A DNA stretch of 64,000 bases from the NCBI RefSeq assembly GCF_001306135.1, contig NZ_LGKP01000025.1:372001-436000 (forward strand). Reading direction: 5' to 3'. Shown here one piece after another: positions 954-16,170 of this stretch. The stretch's first letter is position 1. Each line of letters opens with the position of its first letter. Position numbers and translations under genes: made by a program. This DNA comes from Herpetosiphon geysericola. Its GTDB lineage: Bacteria > Chloroflexota > Chloroflexia > Chloroflexales > Herpetosiphonaceae. Under the pieces are notes generated by a model. It did no database searches. It saw nothing but the letters and a program-made list of their open reading frames with translations, and was not told the origin of the DNA.

Positions 954-980
954 TTGTGGCTTGAAACTCGGTGTTATAAT
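954..980 (+). promoter_or_regulatory. Possible promoter of the histidine kinase gene
   Basis: A perfect TATAAT lies at 975-980, with TTGTGG at 954-959 as the best -35 (spacer only 15). It sits 35 bases before the chosen start codon. Confidence 0.35.
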
Positions 981-1014
981 TTTTAGCCGAAGCCGCATAG
1001 CTGTGGAGTATCCT

Positions 1015-2616
1015 ATGGCCGCGAATGAACCTGGTCTGGTGCCAAGCCCCGAAGATTCATATCAGCGTTTGCGAACCGAGTATGAACGGTTGCAGTTGCT
1101 CTATAGCCTCGCTCAACAGTTTGCGACGATGTTAAGTTTGCCGAATGTCTTGCAACATGTGCTTTCGGCCACCACCCGTTTTACCAACGCGGTTCGGGGC
1201 AGCATCTTTCTCTATGGCGAGCACGACGAAGTGCAAATGCATTTGCTCTCCGAGCGTTTTCAGCAAGCACGCTTAACCCCTTTTACCAACCGAATTCTGC
1301 GCGAAGGCTTGGCAAGTTGGGTGCTGAAACACCGCCAAAGTGCCTTAATTGCCGATACTAACCTCGACGAACGTTGGATCGATTATCCTAGCGATACCTT
1401 GGATGTGCGTTCGGTCTTGTGTGTGCCGCTATTACGTGGGCGCCGGGTGCGCGGAGTTTTGACCTTGGTGCATCCTGACATCGATTTTTTTACCATGGAT
1501 GATGAGGCACTACTGAATGTGATTGCCCAGCATGCAGCCATGGCGATTGAAAATGCCCAACTGATTGCTGATATTAATGATGAGCGGCGCAAATTTGAGG
1601 GAGCCTTCACCGCCATGGAAGAAGGCTTGATTTTGGTCGATGGCGATGGCCGTATCCACTTTGTTAATCCCCAAGCTTTGGCTTTTTTCGCGGTTACGCC
1701 GCCAGTGCCTGAACATCTCAAAGAGCTTTCACAACCAGTTTTGGCCTTATTCAAAGAAGCCCAACAAACTGGCGATAGTGTGCGGGCCGAGATTGTACTT
1801 GAGCAAAATCCGACCACCGATCTGGCCATTCACATTGCCTATATTCCGATTTTCAGCGAGCAAGAAGATTGGTGGACGATTGTGCTCCACGATATTACGC
1901 GGCTGAAGGAATACGATCGGCTTAAAACGCAGTTTGTGGCTAATGCTTCGCATGAATTGCGCACGCCGTTAGCCAACATTAAGCTCTATGCGCGCTTAGC
2001 CCAGCAAGTTAAGGCTAAAACCAAACTGCCCCAATATCTCGAAACTATAGCAAGCGAAGCTGGGCGCTTGGAGGCCATCGTTGAAGACTTGCTGACCTTG
2101 ACCCGCTTGGATAGTGGCTTGATGCATAGTAACCCTGAGTGGGTTGATATTATTGAGTTGTTGCGCAATTTGGCCCAAACCTATCGGCCATTGGCCGAAG
2201 CGCGCGAACAACGCTTGATTTTTCAAGAATGCACCAGCAATTTGCCTGCGCTATGGCTCGCGCCTGATCAATTTATGCGCGTGGTCGTCAACTTGCTGAG
2301 CAATGCGCTCAAGTTTACGCCCGATGGTGGCACTGTCACCCTCTCAGTTGATCGTCAGATTCACGCTGGGCGCGAGGGCACAATTATTACGGTCGCTGAT
2401 ACGGGGCCGGGCATCGCAGCCGAACATCAACAACGCTTATTTGAACGTTTTTATCGCGGTAGCAACCCAACCGAAAGTGGGAGCGGCTTAGGTTTAGCCA
2501 TTGTTCGCGAGTTACTGGCCTTGATGGGTGGCACAATTTCGGTCGCCAGCACCGTTGGTCAAGGCTCGCAATTCACCTGTTGGTTGCCCTTGGAACAACA
2601 TAGCCATACCGCATGA
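1015..2616 (+). CDS. Sensor histidine kinase (GAF-PAS-HisKA-HATPase)
   Basis: Soluble two-component sensor kinase of 533 residues with no membrane segment. An N-terminal GAF domain (about 40-190) is followed by a PAS domain (about 200-305, with GLILVDGDGRIHFVNPQA), a HisKA dimerisation domain whose phospho-accepting histidine is His313 in NASHELRTPL, and a HATPase domain with N box NLLSNALKFTPDGG near residue 426, DTGPGI, and GSGLGLAIVREL. The ATG at 1015 has GGAG six bases upstream, better than the upstream TTG at 961. The response regulator gene begins about 105 bases downstream, so the pair likely forms one signalling unit. The ligand of the GAF or PAS domain cannot be read from sequence. 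Confidence 0.93.
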   Translation: MAANEPGLVPSPEDSYQRLRTEYERLQLLYSLAQQFATMLSLPNVLQHVLSATTRFTNAVRGSIFLYGEHDEVQMHLLSERFQQARLTPFTNRILREGLASWVLKHRQSALIADTNLDERWIDYPSDTLDVRSVLCVPLLRGRRVRGVLTLVHPDIDFFTMDDEALLNVIAQHAAMAIENAQLIADINDERRKFEGAFTAMEEGLILVDGDGRIHFVNPQALAFFAVTPPVPEHLKELSQPVLALFKEAQQTGDSVRAEIVLEQNPTTDLAIHIAYIPIFSEQEDWWTIVLHDITRLKEYDRLKTQFVANASHELRTPLANIKLYARLAQQVKAKTKLPQYLETIASEAGRLEAIVEDLLTLTRLDSGLMHSNPEWVDIIELLRNLAQTYRPLAEAREQRLIFQECTSNLPALWLAPDQFMRVVVNLLSNALKFTPDGGTVTLSVDRQIHAGREGTIITVADTGPGIAAEHQQRLFERFYRGSNPTESGSGLGLAIVRELLALMGGTISVASTVGQGSQFTCWLPLEQHSHTA

Positions 2617-2722
2617 TTACTCACTTAATCGTAATTCTGTTCGTAAACTCTCACCCCTACAGTGGATATGCATTGTCTGTTTTTTACCTGTTTTCGCATC
2701 TGTTCTGAAGAAGGAGTACCCC

Positions 2723-3382
2723 ATGCGGATCCTGATTGTTGATGATCATCCAGTGTTTCGTGAAGGGGTACGTGCCCTGCTCGAAACCCACGATGAGATG
2801 GAAGTGGTTGGCGTGCTTGGGCATGGGCGCGACGCTGCGGTAGTGGCGAAAGATCAATTTGTTGATGTAGCGCTGCTCGATGTGAGCTTGCCTGATATGC
2901 CTGGCTATGAAGTGTGCCGCACGATTGTTGAAGCATCGCCGCGCACGCGAGTTTTGATGCTGACCGCCAACGATACCAATGATGTGATTCGCCAATCGTT
3001 GGCCGCTGGGGCTGCTGGCTATGTGCTCAAAACCGAAGATCCTTCGCGTTTGATTAGTCATATTAGTGCGGTTGCTCAAGGCGAGACCGTGTTGGCTGGC
3101 CCAATTGCCCAAAAAGTTGTGCGCCAACTGTTGGAAGGCCCGCAACCAACCGTCTCGACCAAAACCAACGATGCCCTGAATGCCTTGACCGAGCGCGAAC
3201 GCCAAGTCTTTTTCTTGGCCGCCGAAGGCCGCCGCAACAGCGATATTGCCCAGCAATTAATTCTGAGCGAAGAAACAATTAAAACCCATTTACGCAATAT
3301 TTATAGCAAATTAGGATTGGGCAATAAAGCTGAATTGCGCTTATTTGCTGTGCAAGCTCGGCTCGCACCACCGCAAGTCTAA
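2723..3382 (+). CDS. NarL/FixJ-family response regulator
   Basis: A DNA-binding response regulator of 219 residues. The receiver domain has the acidic pair Asp7-Asp8, phospho-acceptor Asp53 (VALLDVSLPD), the conserved MLTA and GYVLKTED switch residues. The C-terminal LuxR-type helix-turn-helix reads LTERERQVFFLAAEGRRNSD and then SEETIKTHLRNIYSKLGLGN. The start at 2723 has AAGGAG upstream; the longer open frame back to 2528 overlaps the kinase gene and is not coding. It probably receives phosphate from the kinase encoded just upstream, although kinases with HisKA domains more often pair with OmpR-type regulators. Targets are unknown; the adjacent RiPP operon is one possibility. Confidence 0.93.
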   Translation: MRILIVDDHPVFREGVRALLETHDEMEVVGVLGHGRDAAVVAKDQFVDVALLDVSLPDMPGYEVCRTIVEASPRTRVLMLTANDTNDVIRQSLAAGAAGYVLKTEDPSRLISHISAVAQGETVLAGPIAQKVVRQLLEGPQPTVSTKTNDALNALTERERQVFFLAAEGRRNSDIAQQLILSEETIKTHLRNIYSKLGLGNKAELRLFAVQARLAPPQV

Positions 3383-3417
3383 ACTAAAATTCCCACAATT
3401 GAGGGATACAACAGGGC

Positions 3418-3447
3418 TTGGACGTGGAGATCAGTTCATGCTAAGAT
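3418..3447 (+). promoter_or_regulatory. Promoter of the RiPP operon
   Basis: TTGGAC at 3418-3423 and TAAGAT at 3442-3447 are separated by 18 bases, a good housekeeping-type match. It lies in the 110-base gap after the response regulator and about 45 bases before the pqqD-like start codon. Confidence 0.55.
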
Positions 3448-3492
3448 GAAAATCATTGCAATTGCTAACCCTTGTGGTTTGAGTAAACACTT

Positions 3493-3789
3493 ATGAATGA
3501 GCACGCTCCACAACGATTTGTCCGTGATCCGGCGATTGTTACCCGTAGCATTGGGAGTGAAACGGTGTTGGTTCCTGTCCGACCAAACACCGCCGCCCTC
3601 AATGCTATTTTTGCGCTTAACGAAACCGCCGCGCTGGTTTGGCAGGCTTTGGCAACGCCCCAAAGTTTGGCCGAATTGATTGAGCATGTGTGTGCCGAAT
3701 ACGATGTTGAACCGCGCGCCGCCCAAGACGATCTGATTCCGTTGTTGGAATCGATGCTTGCGGCCGCCGTTATTCAGGAGGTTGCCTAA
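3493..3789 (+). CDS. PqqD-family RiPP recognition element protein
   Basis: A stand-alone 98-residue PqqD-like protein. Such proteins bind the leader of a precursor peptide and deliver it to the modifying radical SAM enzyme. The family pattern is visible: N-terminal beta strands (FVRDPAIVTRSIG, ETVLVPV), the NAIFALNETAALVWQAL segment, and the helical end with AELIEHVCAEYDVEP and a closing acidic DDLIPLLESM helix. Only two bases separate its stop from the radical SAM start, indicating co-translation. The ribosome binding site is weak. Length and order (PqqD, radical SAM, precursor) match RiPP cassettes such as those that make sactipeptides or ranthipeptides. Confidence 0.88.
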   Translation: MNEHAPQRFVRDPAIVTRSIGSETVLVPVRPNTAALNAIFALNETAALVWQALATPQSLAELIEHVCAEYDVEPRAAQDDLIPLLESMLAAAVIQEVA

Positions 3790-3791
3790 GC

Positions 3792-4907
3792 ATGGAATTA
3801 TGTGCAGAAACCAACGATGCGGCGTTCAATGTCCGATTATCTGCCTTGGGGCGCGTGCCAGTTTCGATGTCGTTTGAGTTGACCGAGCGCTGTAACTTAA
3901 ATTGCCAACATTGCTATATCAACTTGCCAGTCAATCATCAGGCTGCCCGCCAACGTGAGCTTTCAACCCAAGAATGCAAACGCCTGCTCGACGAGATGGC
4001 GGCTGCTGGCACGCTGTGGTTGTTGCTCACTGGTGGCGAAATTATGGTGCGCCGCGATTTTGAAGAGTTATATCTTTATGCTCGCAACCTTGGCTTTGTG
4101 ATTTCGATTTACACCAATGCTACTATGGTTACCCGCCAACGAGCTGAATTTTTGAGCAACTACAAGCCGCATTTGGTCGAAGTGACGCTGTATGGCGCAA
4201 CCGCCGAAACTTATGAAACCGTGACCCGTGTGCCTGGCTCGTTTGCTAAGTGTATGCAAGGCTTGGCGCTGCTGGCCGAATATGAGCTTGACGTGGTGCT
4301 CAAAACCGTGTTGCTCAATATTAATTCGCACGAATTTTTGGCCATGAAGGCTGTGGCCGAGCACTATGGCTGGGATTTTCGCTACGATGGCATGATTCAC
4401 CCACGCCTAAATGGCGATCGTTTTCCCACCACATTACGGCTGACCCCAGAAGAATTGATTGCAATCGAAAAACTCGATCCCCAGCGGGTTGAGGAATGGC
4501 AGGATTATTGCAATGGCTTTTTGGGCTACCAAATGAAGGGTGGCGAAAAAACGTTCACCTGTGGCGCTGCCAATAAATCGGGCCATGTCGATGCCTATGG
4601 GATGGTCAGCCCGTGTATGATTACCCGCACGCGCGCTGTCGATTGGCGGGCAACCAATTTTATGGATGTTTGGGATGGCTATTTGGCCGAAGTACGCGAA
4701 ACCCGCAACACCGAAGCCACTGCCTGCCATTCCTGCGAAATGTCACTGGTCTGTACCAATTGTCCAGGTTGGTCGACCTTAGAGCGTAACAGCTTGGAAA
4801 ATCGCCCAATCGATTGGGTGTGTGATAGCACGAAGGCGCGGGTTTCAGCGTTTGCTGAAAATGCCGACCGTTGGATCAATAATGCAATTTGTCTAGAGGT
4901 TCGCTAA
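3792..4907 (+). CDS. Radical SAM/SPASM peptide-modifying enzyme
   Basis: A 371-residue radical SAM enzyme expected to modify the peptide encoded just downstream. The first 4Fe-4S cluster is bound by Cys34, Cys38 and Cys41 (TERCNLNCQHC). LTGGEIMVRRDFEEL is the GGE motif that contacts S-adenosylmethionine. The C-terminal SPASM region (from about Cys257) has Cys275, Cys312, Cys315, Cys321 and Cys324, arranged as CGAANK, SPCMI and CHSCEMSLVCTNC, enough for auxiliary clusters. A GGAGG sequence inside the end of the pqqD-like gene serves as ribosome binding site. Reaction type (thioether, carbon-carbon or epimerisation) cannot be fixed from sequence; cysteine-rich substrate and SPASM domain favour thioether formation. 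Confidence 0.92.
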   Translation: MELCAETNDAAFNVRLSALGRVPVSMSFELTERCNLNCQHCYINLPVNHQAARQRELSTQECKRLLDEMAAAGTLWLLLTGGEIMVRRDFEELYLYARNLGFVISIYTNATMVTRQRAEFLSNYKPHLVEVTLYGATAETYETVTRVPGSFAKCMQGLALLAEYELDVVLKTVLLNINSHEFLAMKAVAEHYGWDFRYDGMIHPRLNGDRFPTTLRLTPEELIAIEKLDPQRVEEWQDYCNGFLGYQMKGGEKTFTCGAANKSGHVDAYGMVSPCMITRTRAVDWRATNFMDVWDGYLAEVRETRNTEATACHSCEMSLVCTNCPGWSTLERNSLENRPIDWVCDSTKARVSAFAENADRWINNAICLEVR

Positions 4908-4928
4908 CCGCGCACCGGAGGATGTCTC

Positions 4929-5099
4929 ATGGCACAACAATCATCGACCAAGCCTGAACGCAAGCCCCGCAAAGCCTATGTCAAACCAACTATCGAAACG
5001 GTTGGCCTGCGAATTAAAGAAGATGTGTTGGCGGTGTGCCGCACGACTAGCAGCGCCACATCGGGCGCAAATTGTAAAATCACGCCCTGTTTTAGCTAA
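4929..5099 (+). CDS. Candidate RiPP precursor peptide (56 residues)
   Basis: A short gene between the radical SAM and HPr-kinase-like genes, preceded by GGAGG at 4917-4921 with a 7-base gap. The leader is very basic (RKPRKAYVKP). It contains Tyr17, Pro20, Ile22 and Gly26 in the pattern YxxPxIxxxG, which is the recognition pattern of lasso-peptide leaders bound by PqqD-like proteins. The tail from Cys37 to Ser56 has three cysteines (37, 49, 54), a run of Thr/Ser/Ala/Gly, and a C-terminal PCFS. The peptide is unlike a structural or metabolic protein, and its position makes a precursor the natural reading. Which residues survive as mature core is inferred to be roughly 33-56. Confidence 0.8.
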   Translation: MAQQSSTKPERKPRKAYVKPTIETVGLRIKEDVLAVCRTTSSATSGANCKITPCFS

Positions 5100-5114
5100 G
5101 CGCTATTTTTTGCG

Positions 5115-5945
5115 ATGGTGATGCTTTCCATTGGTGGTTGTCGAATTGCCCTTGATCTGCCAGCATGGCCAGCCATGGTCGACCAGCAATTTCAAATCAG
5201 CAATGCAACCGCTGATCTTCAGATTCGCACCTGTGCTGCCGCTGACCGCTATCCGCTTGGTCAGCGGCTTTTTCAGGCCGATCAAGTTTGGGCGCTCTGG
5301 CAGCACGAGCGGATTCGTAGCATTGTTGGCCAGCCGCCAACCCATGCCGAGCCATTGTGGGTGCTGCAACAAACCGCCGTCGATACATGGTGGCTCAGCC
5401 ATGATCCAAGTATTAGCGCTGCCGAAGTCTTGTTCGATTATCCAGGCTTGCAGTTGATCTTAATTGAATGGCTGAGCGCACATCAAGGCGGCTTGCTGCA
5501 TGCATGCGGTGTGGTTGATGCAGGCCAAGGCTTGCTGCTGGTTGGCCCGCCAGGCGTTGGTAAATCAACCTCAGCGCGCCTTTGGCATAGCGCGGGAGCC
5601 AGCATTTTGAGTGATGATCGGGTGATTGTGCGTTGGCAGGCCAACCATCTGTGGGCCTATGGCACGCCATGGTATAGCAGCGCTGGTTTAATCGCCGCCC
5701 AAGCAGCCCCAGTGCGGGCAATTTGCTATCCCAGCCATGGCCAAACCAACCAAGCCACCAGTTTGAGCAGCGCCCAAGCCTTGCGCCATTGGCTGCCCGA
5801 GCAATTTCTGCCCTTGTGGAACCCAATTGCCCTTGACCAAGCCTTGGAACTTGCCGATTATGCTACCAGCAAAGTGGACCAATGGCACTTGGCGTTTGTA
5901 CCCGAATCTGAGGTAATTAGCTATGTGCGCCAACTCCTTGGCTGA
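5115..5945 (+). CDS. HPr-kinase-like protein of the RiPP cluster
   Basis: A 276-residue protein with an N-terminal domain of about 110 residues typical of RiPP-associated HprK homologues and a C-terminal P-loop kinase fold. Walker A is GPPGVGKST at residues 144-152, preceded by GGLLHACGVVDAGQG and followed by LSDDRVIVRW, the acidic pair of HprK-like active sites. Homologues in lasso-peptide clusters phosphorylate the C-terminal serine of the precursor; the local precursor ends in serine. Others (ScmC-type) are of unknown role. It starts 15 bases after the precursor stop with a poor ribosome binding site (ATG at 5115 or 5121). Its end overlaps the next gene by 23 bases. Confidence 0.82.
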   Translation: MVMLSIGGCRIALDLPAWPAMVDQQFQISNATADLQIRTCAAADRYPLGQRLFQADQVWALWQHERIRSIVGQPPTHAEPLWVLQQTAVDTWWLSHDPSISAAEVLFDYPGLQLILIEWLSAHQGGLLHACGVVDAGQGLLLVGPPGVGKSTSARLWHSAGASILSDDRVIVRWQANHLWAYGTPWYSSAGLIAAQAAPVRAICYPSHGQTNQATSLSSAQALRHWLPEQFLPLWNPIALDQALELADYATSKVDQWHLAFVPESEVISYVRQLLG

Positions 5946-6369
5946 ACGCGTGCTCAGCGCCGCCGAAGCCTACGCATTGGCGCAGGTGGTTGTGCAGGCA
6001 GGGGGCAGGCTCCAACTCCAAGTGGCGGGCCGCAGTATGCAGCCAATCCTGCCCGACCAAACTTTGGTAACAATTGCTGATTTACCAGCAACTATTAGCT
6101 TGGGCAGCGTGGTTTTGGCCAAGGTTGGGCAACGAGTGGTGATCCATCGGGTGCTTTGGCGCAGGCAGCAGCAATATTTGATTGCTGGCGATGCTTGCCC
6201 CTATTTCGATGGTTGGATCGAGCGCTCGGCAATTGTGGCCCAGGCTGTTGCTTGGCAAACCCCAAATGCGCGCTTGAGTCTCAATCTGCTTCGGCGTTAC
6301 GCTCAATGGATTTTGGCGTGGTTGCGCCATGGGCGGCGTTGGTTGATCAAATCGAACTATCTGAGGTAA
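5923..6369 (+). CDS. S26/S24-family signal-peptidase-like protein
   Basis: A 148-residue protein related to signal peptidase I of the SipW/archaeal (S26B) type. The nucleophile motif GRSMQPILP carries the catalytic serine; the second motif is VVIHRVLW, in which histidine stands in place of lysine as in S26B enzymes, followed by LIAGDACPYFD. A C-terminal hydrophobic stretch near SLNLLRRYAQWILAWLR may hold it to the membrane. Small proteins of this kind recur in radical SAM/PqqD RiPP cassettes and are good candidates for leader removal. It overlaps the kinase-like gene and lies two bases before the C25 protease gene. A GTG at 5950 is an alternative start. Confidence 0.75.
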   Translation: MCANSLAERVLSAAEAYALAQVVVQAGGRLQLQVAGRSMQPILPDQTLVTIADLPATISLGSVVLAKVGQRVVIHRVLWRRQQQYLIAGDACPYFDGWIERSAIVAQAVAWQTPNARLSLNLLRRYAQWILAWLRHGRRWLIKSNYLR

Positions 6370-6371
6370 CT

Positions 6372-9300
6372 ATGCTCCAGCGTTGGTTAATTGGCTGTTT
6401 AGTTCTGGCGATGTTGCTCATTCGTCAGCCAGTGGTGGCTCACATTGCTACCGCTCCGCTGACGATCCAACGCCATGGCCAGCGTTTGCAGATTAATCTT
6501 CAATTGCCAAAACCAAACGTATCCGCCAATGCGATTAAGTTGGCTGGTTGGCAGAATGATGCTACCGCCGATCAACCAGCCTTGCCACGTTCAGCTCACT
6601 GGTTAGTTGTGCCAACTGGCTATCGCTTGCAGCTCAGATCGGCTGTCGCCAACGATTTGCAGGCCTATCGCCAGCAACTTCAGCTTAACCAGACCAGTGG
6701 TTGGCAGGTTGACCCATTGCAGCCAAGCAAGGCCGTCGCGACCAGCACCCCAAGCACTGCGCTCAAACAAGCCCAGTATCCAGCAGCATGGGCTAGCCTT
6801 GGTCAAGTTGTCCAAGTGCGTGAGCAAGTGCTCGTGCCCTTGACGATTTTTGGCGCTCAATGGCAACCAGCCAAACAGCAACTATTTGTGCCAAGCTCAA
6901 TTGATATTAGCTTGGAATTTGTGGCTGATGCTCCGCAGCGCAGGCTCCGGCCTGATCCGTTGTGGAATGAGCTGCTGCGCCAACAAGTGCTTAACCCCAG
7001 TGATCTTACTGATCTTAGCTTGAAACCCCAACTGGCGAGCAGCGTGCCCTTGACCACTGGCTTGCGGGTGAGTTTTGCCCAGCCTGGGATTAGCGAAATT
7101 CGCTGGAGCGATTTGCAGGCGGCAGGCGTGCCAAGCCAATGGATTAATCAAGCGGCCAATTTGCAGCTTTGGCAGGGCCGCAAGCAACTGCCGCGTTTGC
7201 TTACCGCTACGGGCATGGTGTTTTATCTCCCACCCTATAATCGCGATCAAAGCCACGCAGGCAGCGTAATTGTGCGCTGGAATTCGCAACAAGCAGGCAC
7301 TGTCTTAGTCAGCGAATCGGTTAATTCTGCTAGCCCAAGCCTCAATTACTACAACGAAACCCTGCGTTTGGAAGAACAAAAACTCTATTTGAGTGCCTTT
7401 CCGGCGAGCGGCACAAACCGTTGGTGGTGGCAATATTGGTATAGCCCGGGCGCTGGTCAAACCGCCCAACCATTGCAGATCAATTGGAATCTTGATAGTG
7501 CGACTCGTTTTGATCAGCCAGCCCGTTTGCGCTTGCGCTTACATGGCGGCAATTTGGGCAATCGTCATCAGGCCGAAATTTGGCTTAACAATCGCTTGCT
7601 CACTACCGTCACCATGACTGGGCATCAATTGCTTGAGCCAACGATTAGCGTACCAAGCGGCTGGCTTAGCCCAACCAACCAGCTAACAATTGCGCCAATT
7701 GGCAACGAGCGCGAAACCAGCTTTCTCGATTGGGTTGAGCTTGATTATCAGCGCCAATTGCAGGCGGTTGCTGGCGAATTGCAGTGGTCAAGCACTCAGC
7801 CAAATCAAACGATCAGCAACATCAGCAGCGAAAATCCATTGCTATTTGATGTGCAAATGCCCTTTGCGCCGCGGCGTTTGGTTGGCTGGAATTTGCAGCA
7901 AGGCCAATTAAGTTGGCAAACGACAGGCAATCGGCGCTATCTAGTGCAAAGCCAACGCCAAACGCCGTTGGGTAGCACATGGTTTAGCCAGCCCGATCTG
8001 AGCGCGCTCAACCAACAAGCAGATTATTTGGTGCTTAGCTACAATCCTGCCAATTCCAGCAGTTGGAGTAACGCTCTGCAACCGTTGCTGGATCAACGAG
8101 CGCGCCAAGGCCTCAAGCCATTGTTAATCGATGTCCAACATATTTACGATCAATTTGGCGATGGGCGGGTTGATCAGCAAGCAATTGCCGAATTTATCAA
8201 ATATGCCTATGCCAATTGGCAGGCTCCTGCGCCGAGTTTCGTGCTATTGGTTGGCGATGGCACTGCCGATCCGCATGATTACGCCGATAGTATTGGCCAT
8301 CCGGTAACCAATTTTATTCCGCCCTATTTGGCTGATGTTGACCCGTGGTTGCGCGAAACTGCCGCCGACAACCGCTATGTGACGGTGGCTGGCAGCGATA
8401 ATCTGCCCGATTTGTTTTTGGGCCGTATTCCAGCTCGTTCGTTGAGCGATGTCGAGAATGTGGTCAACAAAATTTTGAGCTACGAAGCAACCCCAAGCGA
8501 TGCAAGCTGGCTGAATAATTTGCTGTTTATCGCCGATGATCCTGATCAATCAGGCGATTTTCCAGCGCTTTCGAATGAAGTTGTGGAGATTTTACCTACG
8601 ACGATTGATCAGCAATTACTGTATTACACGCCAAATAGCAATCTGACCCAATTTCGAGCCGAGATTGTCAATGCGATCAATAGTGGCCAATTTTTGGTCA
8701 ATTATGTTGGCCATGCGGGAATTGATGTTTGGGCTGAGCCAGCGATTTTTACTCAGCAATCGGTCGCAAACTTGAACAACACAGCCTTGCCATTGGTGCT
8801 TTCGTTGAGTTGCTATGCTGGCCATTATCAACAAAACGATTTGGAATCGTTGGCTGAGATGCAGCTTTTGAAGCAGCAGCGGGGGGCGGTTGGTATCTGG
8901 GCAGCCAGCGGTTTAGGCATCGCCCATGGCCATGATCACCTTGATCGGGGCTTTGTGAATGCCATTATCAACGATGGTTGGCGGGTGGTTGGGCCGGCAA
9001 CGATTCAAGGCAAGCTTGATTTAGCAGCGGCGAATATCTCGCCTGATTTGCTAGATACCTTTACCTTTTTTGGCGATCCGGCGTTGCGCGTGCCGTTGCC
9101 AGCGCTGAATACCTGGCAGCCAAGCGCCGATTATTTCGAAGTCTTGCAATATTCGCAGGCCAATCGGCTAACGCCCTTGGCAAATGATCAAGCCAGTTTT
9201 AGCCAGATTATCAGCTTTGAGCAGCCGCAGCATGGCCGTGCATGGCTCGATGCTGATCAACAAAGCATTCGCTATACGCCTGATCCCATCTATAATGGGT

Positions 9301-9425
9301 TGGATACATTCAGCTATCAAGTGCGCAATTTGAGCCTAAACCAAAGTTTGGCGACAACGGTTACAATAAGCGTGACCGCGATTGCGCCGCAGCTCTATCT
9401 ACCATTGACCGTCGCAGCGCCTTAA
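6372..9425 (+). CDS. Secreted gingipain-like C25 cysteine protease
   Basis: A 1017-residue exported protein with a signal peptide (LIGCLVLAMLLIRQPVVAH). The catalytic domain is recognised by LLVGDGTADPHDY, by NYVGHAGIDVWAE with catalytic His781, and by LSLSCYAGHYQQ with catalytic Cys814, spaced as in gingipains. A C-terminal Ig/cadherin-like module ends at APQLYLPLTVAAP, the kind of short LPL tail seen on several secreted proteins of this phylum. The ATG at 6372 has GAGG upstream and follows the S26-like stop by two bases, so it is co-transcribed with the RiPP genes. It may be a cell-surface maturation protease or an unrelated exoprotease sharing the promoter. Confidence 0.88.
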   Translation: MLQRWLIGCLVLAMLLIRQPVVAHIATAPLTIQRHGQRLQINLQLPKPNVSANAIKLAGWQNDATADQPALPRSAHWLVVPTGYRLQLRSAVANDLQAYRQQLQLNQTSGWQVDPLQPSKAVATSTPSTALKQAQYPAAWASLGQVVQVREQVLVPLTIFGAQWQPAKQQLFVPSSIDISLEFVADAPQRRLRPDPLWNELLRQQVLNPSDLTDLSLKPQLASSVPLTTGLRVSFAQPGISEIRWSDLQAAGVPSQWINQAANLQLWQGRKQLPRLLTATGMVFYLPPYNRDQSHAGSVIVRWNSQQAGTVLVSESVNSASPSLNYYNETLRLEEQKLYLSAFPASGTNRWWWQYWYSPGAGQTAQPLQINWNLDSATRFDQPARLRLRLHGGNLGNRHQAEIWLNNRLLTTVTMTGHQLLEPTISVPSGWLSPTNQLTIAPIGNERETSFLDWVELDYQRQLQAVAGELQWSSTQPNQTISNISSENPLLFDVQMPFAPRRLVGWNLQQGQLSWQTTGNRRYLVQSQRQTPLGSTWFSQPDLSALNQQADYLVLSYNPANSSSWSNALQPLLDQRARQGLKPLLIDVQHIYDQFGDGRVDQQAIAEFIKYAYANWQAPAPSFVLLVGDGTADPHDYADSIGHPVTNFIPPYLADVDPWLRETAADNRYVTVAGSDNLPDLFLGRIPARSLSDVENVVNKILSYEATPSDASWLNNLLFIADDPDQSGDFPALSNEVVEILPTTIDQQLLYYTPNSNLTQFRAEIVNAINSGQFLVNYVGHAGIDVWAEPAIFTQQSVANLNNTALPLVLSLSCYAGHYQQNDLESLAEMQLLKQQRGAVGIWAASGLGIAHGHDHLDRGFVNAIINDGWRVVGPATIQGKLDLAAANISPDLLDTFTFFGDPALRVPLPALNTWQPSADYFEVLQYSQANRLTPLANDQASFSQIISFEQPQHGRAWLDADQQSIRYTPDPIYNGLDTFSYQVRNLSLNQSLATTVTISVTAIAPQLYLPLTVAAP

Positions 9426-9489
9426 GAATTTGCTTTACAATAATGGGTAAAATGATCGCTTTAGTGCGATTTGTAGCCTTTTAGTCCTA

Positions 9490-9518
9490 TTGCGCAATTG
9501 TAAAGAGAGCTATATAAT
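9490..9518 (+). promoter_or_regulatory. Promoter of the sortase gene
   Basis: TTGCGC at 9490-9495 and TATAAT at 9513-9518 with a 17-base spacer. Transcription would start near 9525, leaving a very short leader before the TTG start at 9539. Confidence 0.65.
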
Positions 9519-9538
9519 TTGCGCCATTCTAGGGATGA

Positions 9539-10447
9539 TTGAAGCATATAGAGTACGAGTTTGTAGTGGTACAACCGCCAACCATCGATTCGACACACGA
9601 CGATTTGGGCTTGCTTCAAGAATTGCTGGCAGCACCACCACCAGTGCGTTCGTCATTGCATCGACCTGCCCAACTTCGTTCGCTCAAAGAAGAGCGTAAG
9701 ACTGCACTTCAAGGGTACCGTTTCCGTGGGGTGCTTGATGCTATTTTAGTGCGCTCAGAACGGTTGTTGATCCTTGGGGTGATTGTTTTTTTTGGGTATT
9801 GGGTCGTCAATATCTATGGCCGCGACTGGTGGTATGCGCGCAGCAATCCAGCTGCTCCGGCCCCAGTTTGGGAAGCACTTGCGCCTGGAGCTAGTGCCGC
9901 CGAGCTAGATCAAGTTTTGGGGCAACAACTCCCAGTTATTGCGCCAGCGATTAGTGCTGCTGCACCAGATTATCTTGAGCCTGCGCAGGCGTTTATTTTA
10001 CAACCTGCAACACCAACCCCAACGCCTGATCCCATGAGTCTTGTGCCAAAACGGATTATCGTGCCAACAATGCAACTCGATAGTCCAATCCACGAAGTCT
10101 TTTTGCGTGATGGAATTTGGGAAGTTGCCGATTATGCGGTAGGCTATCATCATGGCACCGCCTTACCAGGCAAGGGCAATACGGTGTTTGCTGGGCATGC
10201 AGGCATTCGTGGCAGTGTTTTTGGCCGACTGAACGAACTTCAGCTGGGCCACGATATTTACGTTGAAACAGCTGATACTCGTTATCACTATCAAGTCCAA
10301 ACCATTCAACAAGTTTGGCCAAACCAAGTCGAAGTTATGTATCCAACCGAGCAAGCAATCATCACCATGATTACCTGTACTGCTTGGGACACCCAACGGT
10401 TGGTTGTCAAAGCTCGGCTGATTGATCAGGCAGCGCTCTCCTCTTAA
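9539..10447 (+). CDS. Sortase (class D/E-like transpeptidase)
   Basis: A membrane-anchored transpeptidase of 302 residues that should attach sorted proteins to the cell surface. One membrane segment lies near residues 73-92 (RLLILGVIVFFGYWVV). The catalytic triad is visible: His220 (FAGHAG), Cys280 (ITCTAW) and Arg287 (TQRLVV). The only start upstream of conserved sequence is TTG at 9539, with AGGG four bases before it. A proline-rich linker follows the membrane segment. The next gene encodes a protein with an IPATG sorting signal, the obvious substrate. The start codon is the weakest part of this call. Confidence 0.9.
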   Translation: MKHIEYEFVVVQPPTIDSTHDDLGLLQELLAAPPPVRSSLHRPAQLRSLKEERKTALQGYRFRGVLDAILVRSERLLILGVIVFFGYWVVNIYGRDWWYARSNPAAPAPVWEALAPGASAAELDQVLGQQLPVIAPAISAAAPDYLEPAQAFILQPATPTPTPDPMSLVPKRIIVPTMQLDSPIHEVFLRDGIWEVADYAVGYHHGTALPGKGNTVFAGHAGIRGSVFGRLNELQLGHDIYVETADTRYHYQVQTIQQVWPNQVEVMYPTEQAIITMITCTAWDTQRLVVKARLIDQAALSS

Positions 10448-10477
10448 TTGCGGAGGCAATAGATCGAGGGGTTTCGC

Positions 10478-12940
10478 ATGAAATCTTTTTTTCGTCGGCA
10501 ACGCCCGACATCCCTCCGCGAACGAGGTAAAGGCAAAGTTCGCTGGACAATCTGGGAGTTAACAGCGCTGGTTGTTAGCATTATTATGATGGCAACGCCA
10601 TTGTTAGCCGCGATTAGCAGTGCTATTTTTCCATTTAATGCTCAGGCTCAAACAACGCCTCGGCCAACATCGCCGGCTACACCAATAACCCCACTGCCAG
10701 CAACGGCTACCCAGACCTATCCGGTGCCAACTGAAACGCCGTTGGTCACACCCTGTCCAACCGCAGAACCAACCACCCCGCCAACCGAGACCGCAACAAC
10801 CTATCCAACGCCGGGTACGCCAGGCACACCAACCGATACACCAAGCGTGACCGATACACCAACGTCCACGAGTGTGATTTCGCCAACCGATACGCCAAGT
10901 GTGACCGACACCCCAAGTTTGCCAACCGATACGCCTGAGTTGCCAACCGCAACCAGTGTGGTTACACCAACGATCACGACGGTGGTGAGCCCAACCGCAA
11001 CGAATGTGGTTAGCCCAACCGCGATTCGGGGTGGCATGGGTGGGAGCACCCGTTTGCACCGACCTTTGGGGCAAACCCCAGATCCGTGTGTAACGCCAAC
11101 GGTCATTATTATTCCAACTGATACGATTCCGCCAGATGAAACCCCAACCGGTACCATTACTGGCGTCGTTACGCTTACCCCAGATAATCCAACGGTTGAT
11201 CCTTGTACGACTGCAAGTTGTACGCCAGTTGCAACCCTTCCAACCGATATTGCAACTGCAACCGAAACAACCTTGCCTGCATCTGAACCGATTGCCGTGG
11301 CTAAGAGTAGTTCACGGGCACTCGTTCAGCCAGGAGAGACGTTTAGTTATATCATCACGGTAAGTTTCCAAGATAATGGTGATGGCCAAACGTCGCGCTC
11401 AGTCACGATTAGCGACCCATTGCCTAGCCAAGTAACCTTTATTGGCGTGCAGCAGCTTGGTACGGCTACCTGTGTTGGCGGCACAACGGTCAACTGTAAT
11501 GGTACCGTGAGCGCTGGTAATCCAATTGTGGTTACCATCCAAGTGCAAGTAAATGCCAGCGTTGCGCTCGGCACCAATATTGTCAATACAGTGAGCGCTA
11601 CAGCTGCCAATCGTACGCTACAAGCAAGCGATACGGTGATTGTGCCTGATGGCTTGCCAACCAGCACAATTGGCACTCCTGGTGCAAGCTTCACGCCGAT
11701 TGTGATTACGACTACGCCAAATACGCCAATTATCGTGACCAACACGCCAGGCAATGGCACGCCAGTCACACCAATTGTCAATACGCCAGTTACGCCGATT
11801 GTTAACACGCCAGTTACGCCAATTGTGACTAACACACCTGGTGGTGGTGGTACGCCAGTTACGCCGATTGTTAACACGCCAGTTACGCCAATTGTTAACA
11901 CGAGCGTTCCGGTTACGACTCGGCCAAACAATACGCCGCGGCCAAATCCAAGTAACACGCCACGGCCAAACCAACCAACCAATACACCACAGCCAAATCA
12001 GCCAAGCAATACGCCACGGCCTGATATTACTTCAGTGCCAGCGACCAACGTGCCAGTTGCTACGGTTGTTCCTCCAAGCAACCCAACCGCAACGCCACGG
12101 CCAGGTGCACCAATAACTTCGGCTACGCCACGGCCTGGTGGTGGTAGCAACCCAACCGCAACGCCACGGCCAGGCGCACCAGTGGCTTCAGCCACCAATG
12201 CACCTGCTGGAAGCCAACCAACCAATGTACCTGCGCCAGCAACCGCAACCCCAACCAATCCTGCTGGGTTTGTCACTGATCCAATCGTGACTGGCTTGCA
12301 GTTCCAGAAGAAGAGCGATTGGGGCAGCCGCTTCGCAGGCGAAAGCTTGGTCTATACAATTACGATCATCAGCCCAACCAATTCGTTGAATGCGGGCACG
12401 ATGCGCGACTTGGTTGTGGTTGATCAATTGCCAAGCAACTTGGAAACCAATGGCCCAATCAAGGTCAGCGACCAAAATGCTCGGGTTGAGCAACAAGGCA
12501 ACCAAATTACGGTTCGGGTAGGGGTCTTGCCAGCTGGCCAAACCTTGACGATCATGATTCCAGTCAAGATCAAAGATGGTGTGGCAGCGCAAACCAGAAT
12601 TGTCAACCAAGCCCAGTTGAACTTCACTGGCTTGGCGCAGCCAATCTACTCCAACATTTCGAGCGTCTTGGTGGTTGGGGCTGCACCTGCTGGTAGCACC
12701 ACAACCGTGCCAAATGCAACCGCTGCTACAGGTGGAGCTGCAACCGCTAACCCCGCAACTGTTACGCCAAATACTGGCGTTGGCAGTGGCCAAGGCAATG
12801 GCGATGGTGGCACAGTAACTGATGTTGGGACGAGCAATCCTGCAACCAACATGGGTATCCCAGCAACGGGCTTTGTGCTCTTTGCAATGACGATGTTAGT
12901 CCACATTGTGCGGGTTCGCCGCGAGATGACCCGGATCTAA
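10478..12940 (+). CDS. Sortase-anchored surface protein with DUF11 domains
   Basis: An 820-residue cell-surface protein. A signal/membrane segment lies near residues 30-50 (LVVSIIMMATPLLAAI), followed by a long Thr/Pro-rich stalk. A DUF11-type beta domain covers about 265-395 (GETFSYIITVSFQDNGDG), then more repeats including TPVTPIVN, and a second DUF11-like domain at about 605-735. The end reads NMGIPATGFVLF followed by a hydrophobic helix and VRVRREMTRI, a complete sortase signal of motif, helix and basic tail. It has GAGGG seven bases before the ATG and lies 30 bases after the sortase gene. DUF11 domains are common in surface and S-layer-like proteins; a structural or adhesive role is likely. 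Confidence 0.88.
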   Translation: MKSFFRRQRPTSLRERGKGKVRWTIWELTALVVSIIMMATPLLAAISSAIFPFNAQAQTTPRPTSPATPITPLPATATQTYPVPTETPLVTPCPTAEPTTPPTETATTYPTPGTPGTPTDTPSVTDTPTSTSVISPTDTPSVTDTPSLPTDTPELPTATSVVTPTITTVVSPTATNVVSPTAIRGGMGGSTRLHRPLGQTPDPCVTPTVIIIPTDTIPPDETPTGTITGVVTLTPDNPTVDPCTTASCTPVATLPTDIATATETTLPASEPIAVAKSSSRALVQPGETFSYIITVSFQDNGDGQTSRSVTISDPLPSQVTFIGVQQLGTATCVGGTTVNCNGTVSAGNPIVVTIQVQVNASVALGTNIVNTVSATAANRTLQASDTVIVPDGLPTSTIGTPGASFTPIVITTTPNTPIIVTNTPGNGTPVTPIVNTPVTPIVNTPVTPIVTNTPGGGGTPVTPIVNTPVTPIVNTSVPVTTRPNNTPRPNPSNTPRPNQPTNTPQPNQPSNTPRPDITSVPATNVPVATVVPPSNPTATPRPGAPITSATPRPGGGSNPTATPRPGAPVASATNAPAGSQPTNVPAPATATPTNPAGFVTDPIVTGLQFQKKSDWGSRFAGESLVYTITIISPTNSLNAGTMRDLVVVDQLPSNLETNGPIKVSDQNARVEQQGNQITVRVGVLPAGQTLTIMIPVKIKDGVAAQTRIVNQAQLNFTGLAQPIYSNISSVLVVGAAPAGSTTTVPNATAATGGAATANPATVTPNTGVGSGQGNGDGGTVTDVGTSNPATNMGIPATGFVLFAMTMLVHIVRVRREMTRI
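11758..11911 (+). repeat. In-frame tandem repeat encoding TPVTPIVN
   Basis: About six near-identical 24-base units encode an eight-residue Thr/Pro/Val repeat, interrupted once by TNTPGGGG. It lies in the stalk of the surface protein and is a candidate for length variation by slippage. Confidence 0.85.
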
Positions 12941-12960
12941 CCAAAGCGTCTGAAACTAGC

Positions 12961-12990
12961 AAAAACCCCGCTCAACCGAGCGGGGTTTTT
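12961..12990 (+). terminator. Intrinsic terminator between convergent genes
   Basis: AAAAACCCCGCTC, loop AACC, GAGCGGGGTTTTT, followed by further T-rich sequence. The symmetric A/T flanks allow it to serve the surface-protein gene and, in reverse, the convergent RusA gene. Confidence 0.92.
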
Positions 12991-12998
12991 GTTTTTGC

Positions 12999-13415
12999 TT
13001 ATTTGATGAGGACTTCGCGATCGTGTTCAAATTGCCAATCGCTGAGGGCTTCTAACTCGACCTCTAGGCGTGGATGCAAGGGATCGATGCGTTTGACCAA
13101 GTGAATATCGACAACCCGATTATCGTTAATCCCAAGGCTGGTACAGATACTATCTTGGGTAATTTTGAGGCCGCCATCAAGGTCGCGGCGTAGCGGCGTT
13201 TCAAAATAAAAATCGAGGAACAAGGCCAAATAGCCTTTTTGGGCGAGAGCTAAAAACTGCTCCGAGATCGTATCGCGTTGCTGAAGCATGGCCAAATGGC
13301 GTTTGACTTGGCGTTTAAAGGTTTGGGCTTCACGGCTCAAGACGCGGCGATTACCAACCGTCACATATTGGCTATTGATTGATGGTGGTAATGGCAAACT
13401 AAATTGAACAACCAC
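12999..13415 (-). CDS. RusA-family Holliday junction resolvase
   Basis: A 138-residue protein of the RusA endonuclease family, which cuts Holliday junctions. The start of the fold is LPLPPSINSQYVTVGNRR. The acidic catalytic segment is RRDLDGGLKITQDSICTSLG followed by INDNRVVDIHLVKRID. Family members usually have DxDN; here the second position reads DLDGG, a small deviation. The GTG start at 13415 is chosen because GGAGG lies five bases upstream; the open frame extends further but without a ribosome binding site. No phage genes surround it, so it may be a domesticated copy. Confidence 0.85.
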   Translation of the reverse strand: MVVQFSLPLPPSINSQYVTVGNRRVLSREAQTFKRQVKRHLAMLQQRDTISEQFLALAQKGYLALFLDFYFETPLRRDLDGGLKITQDSICTSLGINDNRVVDIHLVKRIDPLHPRLEVELEALSDWQFEHDREVLIK

Positions 13416-13523
13416 ATGCCCCTCCAGACAGCGCCAATCGCAAATCTTTGGTTTAGTATAGCACAGGCTTGCCAAACATTTGTGTTATTTTGTTAAGTTT
13501 ACTCAGGTTAAGCGAGAAAATCT

Positions 13524-13552
13524 TTGACTTATGGCGAAGATTATGCTATAGT
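13524..13552 (+). promoter_or_regulatory. Promoter of the infC-rpmI-rplT operon
   Basis: TTGACT at 13524-13529 and TATAGT at 13547-13552 with exactly 17 bases between. Transcription would begin near 13559, giving a leader of about 75 bases. Confidence 0.78.
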
Positions 13553-13635
13553 TGCCAAGCCAACACCCTAACGCTGATGAGGTCGCGTTTAGGGCTTTGT
13601 TGTGTTTTGATGTCCTTTTTTGGAAGGAGCCTCCT

Positions 13636-14244
13636 ATCAGAGACAAGCTACGAATCAATAATCGGATTCGCGTGCGCGAAGTGCGTCTGATCGACGAAAA
13701 CGGGGAGCAAGTTGGGATCATCACGACTCGTGATGCGCTCGACATGGCACATGACCGCGATCTCGACTTAGTTGAGGTTGCCCCGAATGCTAGCCCGCCG
13801 GTTTGCCGCCTTATGGATTACGGCAAGTACCGCTACGAGCAAACCAAGAAAGAACGCGAAGCCCGCAAGAATCAAAAACAGGTCGAACTGAAAGAGATTC
13901 GCATGCAGCCGCGCACCGACACCCATGACTTGCAGGTAAAGGTGAACAATGCTCGCCGTTTCCTCGAAGAAGGGCACAAAGTGAAGTTCTCGGTACGTTT
14001 CCGTGGGCGCGAAATCACTCACCCTGAAATTGGCCGCGATATGCTTGAGCAAATTGCTGAAGATTTACGCGATCATGGGGTGCTTGAGCAAAAACCCACG
14101 CTCGAAGGTCGGGCCTATTCGTTGATCATGGCCCCATCACCAAGCAAAACGCAGCCTGCGAAACGTAGCGACAAACCGGCTCCACCATCATCATTAGGAG
14201 ATATTGATTTCGATGCCGAAGATGAAGACCAACAAGCAGGCTAA
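13636..14244 (+). CDS. infC: Translation initiation factor IF-3, apparent ATC start
   Basis: IF-3 binds the 30S subunit and rejects initiation at non-standard codons. The N domain ([20 protein letters not shown]), the linker rich in Lys/Glu and the C domain ([20 protein letters not shown]) are complete. The chosen start is ATC at 13636: AAGGAG at 13624-13629 lies six bases before it, and the protein then has 202 residues with the family's usual beginning. No ATG or GTG is available at this position; upstream TTG/ATG codons lack a ribosome binding site and add unconserved residues. A non-AUG start in infC is a known autoregulatory device (AUU in Escherichia coli). A Ser/Pro/Asp-rich tail extends past the fold. 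Confidence 0.93.
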
Positions 14245-14416
14245 ACGCCGCTTCAAAATCACTGGCACCGGTAAAATTATGCGTACCAAGGGTGGCAAAA
14301 GCCACTTCCGCCGCCGCAAATCAACCCGGGTCAAGCAGGCGCTCGATAAGATGTTCCCAGTGAGCCCATCAGACGTGAAGCGTCTGCAACGCTCATTGCC
14401 TTACGGCCTGAAATAG
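14213..14416 (+). CDS. rpmI: 50S ribosomal protein L35
   Basis: L35 of 67 residues, starting with the conserved [20 protein letters not shown] and ending in LPYGLK. Its ATG lies 32 bases inside the end of infC in another frame, with AGGAG at 14196-14200, so its translation is probably coupled to that of IF-3. The ribosome binding site is 12 bases away, longer than usual. Confidence 0.96.
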
Positions 14417-14435
14417 TTCGTTCGTCGGAAAAGTA

Positions 14436-14499
14436 GTGCTGGTTCGCAGCGGGATCAGGGTTACAAGCTTGCAATGCTCCTGTACCGTCTCGCCAGCAC
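14436..14499 (+). promoter_or_regulatory. Structured rpmI-rplT spacer, possible L20 autoregulatory site
   Basis: GTGCTGG at 14436-14442 is the exact complement of CCAGCAC at 14493-14499, and CAGG/CCTG pair inside. The structure ends 30 bases before rplT. L20 is known to repress its operon through leader structures in other bacteria; assignment here is by position only. Confidence 0.4.
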
Positions 14500-14529
14500 G
14501 TTGTCTGTACTCACTTTGGAGGTATCTCG

Positions 14530-14886
14530 ATGGCACGTATCAAACGTGGCATTATGACGCACAAGCGTCACAAGAAGCTTTTGAATCAGGCCAAGGGTTT
14601 CCGCGGCAGCCGTTCACACAACTATAAAACCGCTCACGAAGCAGTAATGAAGGCGCTGGCCTATGCCTACCGCGACCGCCGTAACCGCAAACGCGATTTC
14701 CGCCGCTTGTGGATCGTGCGGATCAACGCTGCTGCACGCTTGAACGGTTTGAGCTATAGCAACTTGATCAATGGCTTGAACAAAGCTGGGATCGTAATTG
14801 ATCGCCGCCAATTGGCCGACTTGGCTGTACGCGATGCTGCCGCCTTCACGGCAATTGTCGCTCAAGCTAAGCAAGCTTTGGCCTAG
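14530..14886 (+). CDS. rplT: 50S ribosomal protein L20
   Basis: L20 of 118 residues, needed early in 50S assembly and often the autoregulator of its operon. The conserved basic N-terminal arm [18 protein letters not shown] and the [19 protein letters not shown] core are intact. GGAGG precedes the ATG. It ends the infC-rpmI-rplT group; a methyltransferase gene follows 18 bases later. Confidence 0.97.
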
Positions 14887-14904
14887 TTCAAGGCACGGTG
14901 CTGT

Positions 14905-15705
14905 GTGAGCGACCTCATTACCAGCGCTGCGAATCATCACGTTAAATACCTGCGCTCATTGGTGCGTTCCCGCAAGGATCGCCACAACGAGCGCAGGTTT
15001 GTTGTTGAAGGGGTACGCTTGGTTGCCGAGGCGCTGAACGTTGGTCAACCAAGCGTTTTGCTGTATGTGCCTGAACAATTGGCCAGCACCGAACGCGGCC
15101 AACAACTGCTCGATCAGCTGGCTGCATTGCCTAATGCTTTTGCAACCACCCCGGCAATTTTGGCGGGAATTAGCGATGTTGAAACGCCGCAAGGGATTAT
15201 TGGCGCTGTGCCAATGCCCCAAATCAACAGCCAACTAGCGTCGTTAATTGTGATGCTCGATGGGGTACAAGATCCTGGTAATGTTGGCACGTTGTTGCGA
15301 TCAGCAGAAGCAGCTGGCGTTGGTCAAGTGCTGTGTTTGCAAGGCACTGCCGATGTGTGGAGTCCCAAGGTTGTGCGCTCGGGCATGGGCGTGCACTTTC
15401 GCTTGCCCATCGTCGATGGCCTTCAATGGGAAACTGCTTTGCCTTTGATTGAACATTGTCCCCAACGCTTTGCTGCGGTGCAAGATTCGGCATTGGCTTA
15501 TGATCAGGCTGATCTGCGCCAACCAAGTGTGCTGATTATCGGCAATGAAGCGAATGGCGTTTCGAGCACAACCCTCAGCTATGCCAACACCATTACTATC
15601 CCCATGCTTGGTGCGCTCGAATCGTTGAATGCTGCGGTTGCAGGCAGTGTGCTGTTGTTCGAAGCCGCCCGTCAACGCAGGAAAAGTATGAAGGATGAAG
15701 GATGA
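14905..15705 (+). CDS. TrmH/SpoU-family RNA 2'-O-methyltransferase
   Basis: A 266-residue SPOUT methyltransferase that methylates ribose in rRNA or tRNA. An N-terminal substrate-binding domain (KYLRSLVRSRKDRHNERRF, FVVEGVRLV) precedes the knotted catalytic domain with motif 1 LDGVQDPGNVGTLLRSAEAA, motif 2 IIGNEANGVS and motif 3 IPMLGALESLNAAVAGSVLL. The start is GTG at 14905. It follows rplT by 18 bases, an order seen in many bacteria, and is probably in the same transcript. The exact target nucleotide cannot be told. Confidence 0.92.
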   Translation: MSDLITSAANHHVKYLRSLVRSRKDRHNERRFVVEGVRLVAEALNVGQPSVLLYVPEQLASTERGQQLLDQLAALPNAFATTPAILAGISDVETPQGIIGAVPMPQINSQLASLIVMLDGVQDPGNVGTLLRSAEAAGVGQVLCLQGTADVWSPKVVRSGMGVHFRLPIVDGLQWETALPLIEHCPQRFAAVQDSALAYDQADLRQPSVLIIGNEANGVSSTTLSYANTITIPMLGALESLNAAVAGSVLLFEAARQRRKSMKDEG

Positions 15706-16108: not shown

Positions 16109-16147
16109 AAAAAAAGCCCCTCGCCCGCCGAAGCGAGCAAGAGGCAA
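16109..16147 (-). terminator. Terminator of the pyruvate dehydrogenase operon
   Basis: Read on the minus strand: GCCTCTTGCTCGC, loop TTCGGCGG, GCGAGGGGC, then eight T. The stem is interrupted but the CTCGC/GCGAG core and U-tract are clear. It lies just after the pdhC stop. Confidence 0.7.
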
Positions 16148-16170
16148 TATTCAAGTATGCTGCAATTCGC

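Follow-up and report, generated by a model that had tools for sequence, protein, structure and literature searches.

What does the compact gene cluster near the start of this stretch of the Herpetosiphon geysericola genome make? The stretch (assembly GCF_001306135.1, contig NZ_LGKP01000025.1, positions 372,001-436,000 of the forward strand; 64,000 nucleotides, hereafter the window) comes from a 6.14 Mb Herpetosiphon-type genome of the phylum Chloroflexota. A preliminary description had read five of its genes, for a PqqD-family protein, a radical S-adenosylmethionine (SAM) enzyme with a SPASM domain, a small precursor, an HprK-like kinase and an S26-type peptidase, as an operon for a ribosomally synthesized and post-translationally modified peptide (RiPP). 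That the cassette makes a RiPP is now hardly in doubt, and our comparison points to a sixth member, the gene for a C25 (gingipain-family) cysteine peptidase.

The precursor peptide and the recurrence of the cassette

An encoded precursor with a conserved leader lies beside its presumed maturase, the arrangement by which a RiPP locus is recognised. A search of 158 genomes of the class, with the radical SAM protein as sole query, gave matches in 8 at an expect value (E) of up to 1e-30, and all 8 carry a precursor at the same place; no homologous locus without one, the observation that the preliminary description had named as contradicting it, was found among these 8. The five genes are packed on the plus strand as described, with gaps of 2, 21 and 15 bases and an overlap of 23 (Table 1).

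Codon comparison indicates that the open reading frame (ORF) of 56 residues is a gene: over its 57 codons it differs from the H. giganteus and H. llansteffanensis counterparts by 9 and 13 synonymous and no non-synonymous codons, and from that of H. aurantiacus by 15 synonymous and 4 non-synonymous ones. Across 19 aligned precursors, Pro20 and three cysteines are invariant. In the larger set of 39, exactly three core cysteines are present in 30 and at least three in 36; the exceptions are L085, L088 and L092, with two, and six peptides of the W-leader type (see below), with four to six. The first cysteine lies 20 residues past the leader tyrosine in 31 of the 39. The core is otherwise highly variable among loci, the last residue apart, and in the three-cysteine peptides the spacers between cysteines range over 11-18 and 3-9 residues. 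Since the three cysteines are invariant while the spacers vary, they are the likely sites of modification. The chance that they are crosslinked, by thioethers or otherwise, seems to us slightly better than even, with thioether formation suggested by analogy to known SPASM enzymes.

Two other readings of the precursor were set aside. The 'VLAVC' stretch is not a lipobox, as the residue before the cysteine varies and the precursor has no visible signal peptide. A double-glycine leader served by a C39 exporter does not fit either: most leaders lack Gly-Gly, and the sole C39 case is one precursor of genome G168 (L059), the other loci, in a search that omitted L097-L114, showing only other ABC-type proteins (in L087, L088, L065/L096, L009 and L010). 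In G168, five precursors with near-identical cores (L055, L056, L058, L059, L060) lie away from the single full Y-type cassette, L057. Three of these five are on contigs under 4.2 kb; the L059 precursor adjoins the C39-type ABC transporter, and that of L060 has six extra residues after the first cysteine.

The family calls stand for PqqD (PF05402, 54.1 bits, cut-off 23.4), Radical_SAM (PF04055, 70.7 bits, cut-off 29.5) and Peptidase_S24 (PF00717, 25.1 bits, cut-off 23.3). SPASM scores below its cut-off (17.7 of 21.5 bits), though a CxxxCxxC motif and a seven-cysteine SPASM-type pattern are present in the protein, and the HprK assignment is weak by sequence but upheld by the predicted fold. Every listed NCBIfam match of the five proteins stays below its cut-off; the best for PqqD are lasso-peptide PqqD models.

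A search for the precursor and the gene order across Chloroflexota, which the preliminary description had suggested, shows that the order PqqD, radical SAM/SPASM enzyme, precursor, HprK-like kinase, in part followed by S26, recurs patchily and in further families. One contig scan, the source of the Aminicenantes and Omnitrophota loci, gave eight loci: L003-L006 have the precursor, and L007 and L008 carry one within a cassette of related type; no precursor was recognised in L009, and L010 proved unrelated, at 29% over a part. A profile built on six precursors matched 112 of 400 genomes of the phylum at E up to 0.5; of the 20 matches that were read, 16 were counted as convincing and four weak ones (L070-L073) were dropped for lack of a surrounding cassette. 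Two larger profiles matched 23 and 25 of 396 genomes in one class. Elsewhere, one genome matched in each of three further classes (1, 29 and 148 genomes searched), as did 3 of 7 and 4 of 15 genomes in two orders; the sets overlap. As these loci were found through the precursor, its presence in them is uninformative; their other genes are not there by construction.

Two subtypes emerge. Y-leader cassettes have one radical SAM enzyme. In the W-leader type, found at L083, L086, L089 and L118 in Chloroflexota and at L007 and L008 in Aminicenantes, the kinase is fused to a radical SAM domain, mostly with further radical SAM genes. The W-leader cassettes at L083 (6916-14869), L089 (8906-15410) and L118 (373-6444) have been delimited; PqqD and S26 occur in most, and L083 also holds a sulfotransferase gene, with a similar-looking gene in L086. 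A link to capsule polysaccharide was not adopted and remains a lead: such genes (Wzz/tyrosine-kinase-like or sugar transferase) lie near some cassettes only, namely L061, L063, L066, L075 and L076, and none was seen in the stretch of the window that was read.

The C25 peptidase

The operon had been described as ending at 6369. This is incorrect, for the C25 gene starts 2 bases past the S26 stop codon. Its catalytic domain matches PF01364 with 300.7 bits (cut-off 23), and His781 and Cys814 fall in conserved columns, shared by 43 and 42 of the 44 domains, a set that contains the window protein and mixes linked with unlinked domains.

C25 played no part in finding the loci. On the same strand and at most 6 kb from the radical SAM gene, it is found in 27 of 32 Y-leader cassettes from 29 genomes, a count in which Herpetosiphon duplicates are not taken separately and from which L078 and L115, both on stretches without a radical SAM gene, and the lone G168 precursors are left out. 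Four of the five cassettes without it lie near contig ends. The contigs of L069, L074 and L080 stop 0.3-0.9 kb past the precursor; that of L020 has room after S26 for one ORF of 771 residues without a Pfam match, and this genome has a C25 gene on another contig. The genome of L065, like that of L069, gave no C25 match. Given that genomes hold few C25 genes (0-7 in the 20 searched), the neighbourhood would not be expected by chance. In a tree of 42 domains, with L062, L111 and L114 left out and a poorly supported backbone, the 23 linked rows, excluding those before PqqD, need 2 changes against 14.1 in shuffles, and 14 of the 15 unlinked domains form three branches of their own, L106 falling among the linked ones. 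C25 was found in none of the six W-leader stretches. Taken over the Y-leader cassettes, C25 very probably belongs to the system.

The proposal that S26 is the leader peptidase is weakened by the same comparison: of the 32 Y-leader stretches, 17 have S26 (profile, E < 1e-8; at L084 it lies some 8 kb away from the radical SAM gene) versus 27 with C25. No paper connecting a radical SAM or RiPP locus with C25 was found in a search that left most subscription journals outside, so an earlier mention is possible. The accessible part of a review of leader proteases (PMC10885120) does not mention C25, gingipain, S26 or signal peptidase.

The kinase and the C-terminal residue

Phosphorylation had been offered as a possible role of the HprK-like protein. 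It is better supported than was claimed, with end-residue counts and a motif pointing to the C-terminal residue. Ser or Thr is the last residue in 29 of 39 precursors (four more G168 near-copies and three later-read loci excluded), against 7.9 expected from core composition, and none of 20,000 random draws was as high. After clustering, the counts are 23 of 32 at 60% (6.0 expected) and 11 of 18 at 50% (3.3 expected). By comparison, a Ser/Thr end is seen in 27 of 189 ORFs of at least 200 residues, taken from 25 of the loci.

The marks of a lasso-type C-terminal Ser kinase, a His, three Gly, Lys-Ser and Asp-Asp, are present at the spacing of the lasso kinase BsfK, and the precursor ends in Ser56. 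According to the accessible part of PMC10368454, these residues matter in BsfK; the part of PMC8498205 available to us describes lasso-peptide kinases that act on a C-terminal Ser. Where the kinase has Asp-Asp (DD), the precursor ends in Ser/Thr at 20 of 20 loci; where it has Glu-Asp (ED, 11 loci) or Asp-Glu (DE, one), this holds for 4 of 12, all with Thr (Fisher 4.7e-05). Three later-read loci, all DD with Ser, bring the first figure to 23 of 23 (Fisher 2.1e-05). The match is a strong hint and not a passed test, because Fisher's test ignores kinship and independent changes are few. The table behind it omits L009 (DD, precursor not recognised) and the kinase-less stretches L069, L074, L075, L080 and L115. 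In the ED-type clade (L063, L064, L066-L068, L076, L081, L084, L087) cores begin with C-[HFN], and a C-terminal Ser/Thr is absent from six of the nine.

Sequence models score weakly on the kinase (HprK_rel_B 33.5 of 200 bits, Hpr_kinase_C 19.2 of 33.3), and a profile search of the PDB gives mainly generic P-loop matches, HprK included. A structure model built from an alignment of 31 proteins has a mean predicted local distance difference test score (pLDDT) of 91.8; the single-sequence model (34.6) is unusable. Foldseek places HprK/P first (E 1.6e-05, with a template modelling score of just 0.31). VIA-align gives PEPCK (Z 13.3, root-mean-square deviation 4.5 over 228 residues), and the 50 matches it lists are all PEPCK-type with HprK not among them, which is no evidence against HprK. 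The two are branches of one known kinase superfamily. The model thus predicts an HprK/PEPCK-type fold. On these grounds of sequence, phosphorylation of the peptide at its C-terminal Ser/Thr appears probable.

Proposed pathway, alternatives and surroundings

We consider it reasonably probable that the six genes form an operon for a modified ribosomal peptide, working as follows. PqqD would bind the Tyr-x-x-Pro block of the leader, as its family and the block itself suggest, and pass the precursor on to the radical SAM/SPASM enzyme; the latter most likely forms thioethers between core cysteines and other residues. The HprK-like enzyme would phosphorylate the hydroxyl of the C-terminal Ser/Thr in the manner of the lasso-peptide kinases, and one or both proteases would free the core. 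C25 looks secreted and is the protease found most regularly with the cassette, and is for these reasons favoured as the processing protease outside the cell; the S26-like protein may be an accessory cutter, a role in release suggested by its Ser and His motifs and its presence in about half of the Y-leader stretches.

Several observations weigh against this pathway. No partner motif for a thioether is conserved, and the fullest model match of the radical SAM enzyme, covering it nearly end to end, is to the mycofactocin maturase (106.6 of 265 bits) and not to a thioether enzyme. The operon contains no exporter or transporter gene. The cassette-bearing genomes G329 and G279 (88% complete) have no C25 at E 1e-10, and G006 and G014 each have two C25 genes without a cassette. 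As to the kinase, BsfK of the same family targets residue 3 of the core and not its end (accessible part of PMC10368454); the kinase tree shows about three changes of the motif, with one independent pair on supported branches and three at most, and significance is then lost. On stretches lacking a kinase gene, the two precursors of L069 end in Ser, that of L080 in Thr, that of L074 in Pro and that of L075 in Ala, and the Ser/Thr ends at L069 and L080 stay unexplained for that reason.

The last point also feeds the view that the HprK-like protein has a regulatory role or is a degenerate ATPase, leaving the peptide unphosphorylated, and that the Ser/Thr end has another cause, such as a protease or exporter preference. 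At L069 and L080 no kinase gene appears before the contig ends, similarity to HprK models is weak, and in one clade Glu replaces the first Asp; the lasso-kinase motif, intact at 23 loci whose precursors without exception end in Ser/Thr, and the predicted HprK/PEPCK-type fold make this view rather unlikely. Proteases whose genes adjoin that of a peptide precursor usually mature it. C25, however, is large, carries its own Ig-like, fn3 and Propeptide_C25 domains, is the most constant extra gene and is present twice at L077, L092 and L117, so that the modified peptide might instead act on it, as inhibitor, activator or covalent partner, with the protease as effector. A shared C25 target is disfavoured by the strong variation of the core among loci, and we judge this idea unlikely, giving about an even chance to C25 being the processing protease rather than the target.

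Could the product be a small peptide-derived cofactor, trimmed to a few residues by proteases? PqqD, a radical SAM/SPASM enzyme and peptidases are the layout of the pyrroloquinoline quinone (PQQ) and mycofactocin pathways, and the long mycofactocin match noted above fits it. A cofactor, however, would keep its residues, and here the core varies strongly save for the cysteines and the last residue; the equivalog models of both pathways are not reached either (besides the mycofact_rSAM score, PqqE 71.6 of 381.35 and PqqD 16.3 of 46 bits). A cofactor is accordingly very unlikely. Membership in SynChlorMet or GeoRSP is more improbable still. The preliminary description had likened the cassette to ScmC/ScmD-type and GeoRSP-type systems, an apt comparison in that SynChlorMet (models ScmA and ScmC-F) has the same kinds of parts: a precursor, a PqqD-like protein, the HprK-like ScmC and radical SAM/SPASM enzymes. 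The window genes match only weakly, with scores far below cut-off (ScmC 17.1 of 125, ScmD 16.9 of 100, ScmE 78.5 of 400, ScmF 73.4 of 400 and GeoRSP_rSAM 52 of 400 bits), geo_PqqD_fam is absent from the PqqD matches at E up to 1, and the precursor matches none of these models. As a yardstick, the near-SynChlorMet cassette of L008 reaches ScmE 380 and ScmF 374.5 of 400 and ScmD 69.3 of 100, which leaves it 20 and 26 bits short of the ScmE and ScmF cut-offs, against 320 at best for the window gene. SynChlorMet moreover has two radical SAM enzymes rather than one and another precursor, and C25, present in the window, was not found in L008. The L008 cassette (12296-16223, Aminicenantes) lies on the same stretch as a W-leader cassette.

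The lasso systems with an HprK-type kinase (paeninodin, ThcoK/SyanK and BsfK types) share with the window the YxxP leader block, a separate PqqD-type recognition protein, the kinase motif with its spacing and the C-terminal Ser (accessible parts of PMC10368454 and PMC8498205). They differ in that the window has a radical SAM/SPASM enzyme, a core with cysteines and a C25 protease; neither a B2-type leader peptidase nor an asparagine-synthetase-type cyclase was found in a Pfam scan of nine genes (961-10447). By analogy, the cassette resembles a lasso-type phosphopeptide pathway in which a radical SAM enzyme has taken the place of the cyclisation machinery. Sactipeptides and ranthipeptides likewise combine a radical SAM/SPASM maturase with a cysteine-containing core, and the conserved cysteines here are at most compatible with such thioether products. 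The StsB, AlbA and PapB models all score far below cut-off on the window genes, and to our knowledge neither a kinase nor C25 is part of those systems. NisP, encoded beside the nisin precursor, is an extracellular subtilisin-type serine leader protease, and the nisin operon has an exporter; the window similarly places a secreted-looking protease beside a RiPP precursor, but a cysteine protease of the C25 family and without an exporter. With gingipain and PorU the peptidase shares the PF01364 catalytic domain with its His and Cys, and differs as operon partner of a RiPP cassette. The type IX sortase PorU model (NF033707) gives 206.2 bits, short of its cut-off of 420.

The operon had also been credited with its own promoter. 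A scan of the upstream region for sigma-70 promoters, other types being outside it, gave no site, and the claim is therefore unproven. Directly upstream (961-3382) lie a GAF/PAS histidine kinase and a NarL-type response regulator, kept in Herpetosiphonaceae; this pair may control the operon. Downstream of C25, after a gap of 113 bases, 9539-12940 holds a sortase (PF04203) followed by an 820-residue protein rich in Thr and Pro that carries an IPATG-like motif close to its end; the position of the sortase after C25 is kept in Herpetosiphonaceae (L021-L024).

Table 1. Operon features and their positions in the window.
Feature	Position	Strand	Basis
Upstream intergenic region; highly similar across Herpetosiphon species, no sigma-70-like site	3383..3492	+	alignment, scan
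PqqD-family precursor-recognition protein, 98 residues	3493..3789	+	Pfam, NCBIfam
Radical SAM/SPASM peptide maturase, 371 residues	3792..4907	+	Pfam, NCBIfam, motifs
Precursor peptide, 56 residues; leader Tyr17-x-x-Pro20 and Leu34, core starts at Cys37	4929..5099	+	alignment, codon comparison
Cys37 codon, first conserved Cys, 20 residues past leader Tyr	5037..5039	+	alignment
Cys49 codon, second conserved Cys	5073..5075	+	alignment
Cys54 codon, third conserved Cys	5088..5090	+	alignment
C-terminal Ser56 codon, predicted phosphorylation site	5094..5096	+	end-residue counts, inference
HprK-like peptide kinase (putative), 276 residues, predicted HprK/PEPCK-type fold	5115..5945	+	sequence models, structure model
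Kinase P-loop GPPGVGKS, residues 144-151	5544..5567	+	motif
Kinase Asp167-Asp168 (DD motif), spacing like lasso kinase BsfK	5613..5618	+	motif comparison
S24/S26-type peptidase, SM-x-P Ser and HR His; no N-terminal membrane helix by eye	5923..6369	+	Pfam, motifs
C25 (gingipain-family) cysteine peptidase, 1017 residues, signal-peptide-like N-terminus, His781/Cys814, C-terminal Ig-like domain	6372..9425	+	Pfam, NCBIfam, alignment

Taken as a whole, the cassette may represent an undescribed RiPP class, patchily present in many Chloroflexota families, in which a three-cysteine core is crosslinked, the C-terminal Ser/Thr phosphorylated and the peptide finished outside the cell by a dedicated C25 protease; a second branch, with Glu for Asp in the kinase and cores that mostly start with C-[HFN]-[ST]-S, would have lost or moved the phosphosite. 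We put this full picture forward tentatively, at somewhat less than even chance. The pathway is compact, could be co-expressed and would be available in cultured Herpetosiphon strains, and the kinase hypothesis hinges on one residue, Ser56, and one motif, DD. If the picture is true, HprK-type peptide phosphorylation would extend from lasso peptides into radical SAM chemistry, and the C25 proteases, known from gingipains and PorU, would gain a role tied to a modified peptide.

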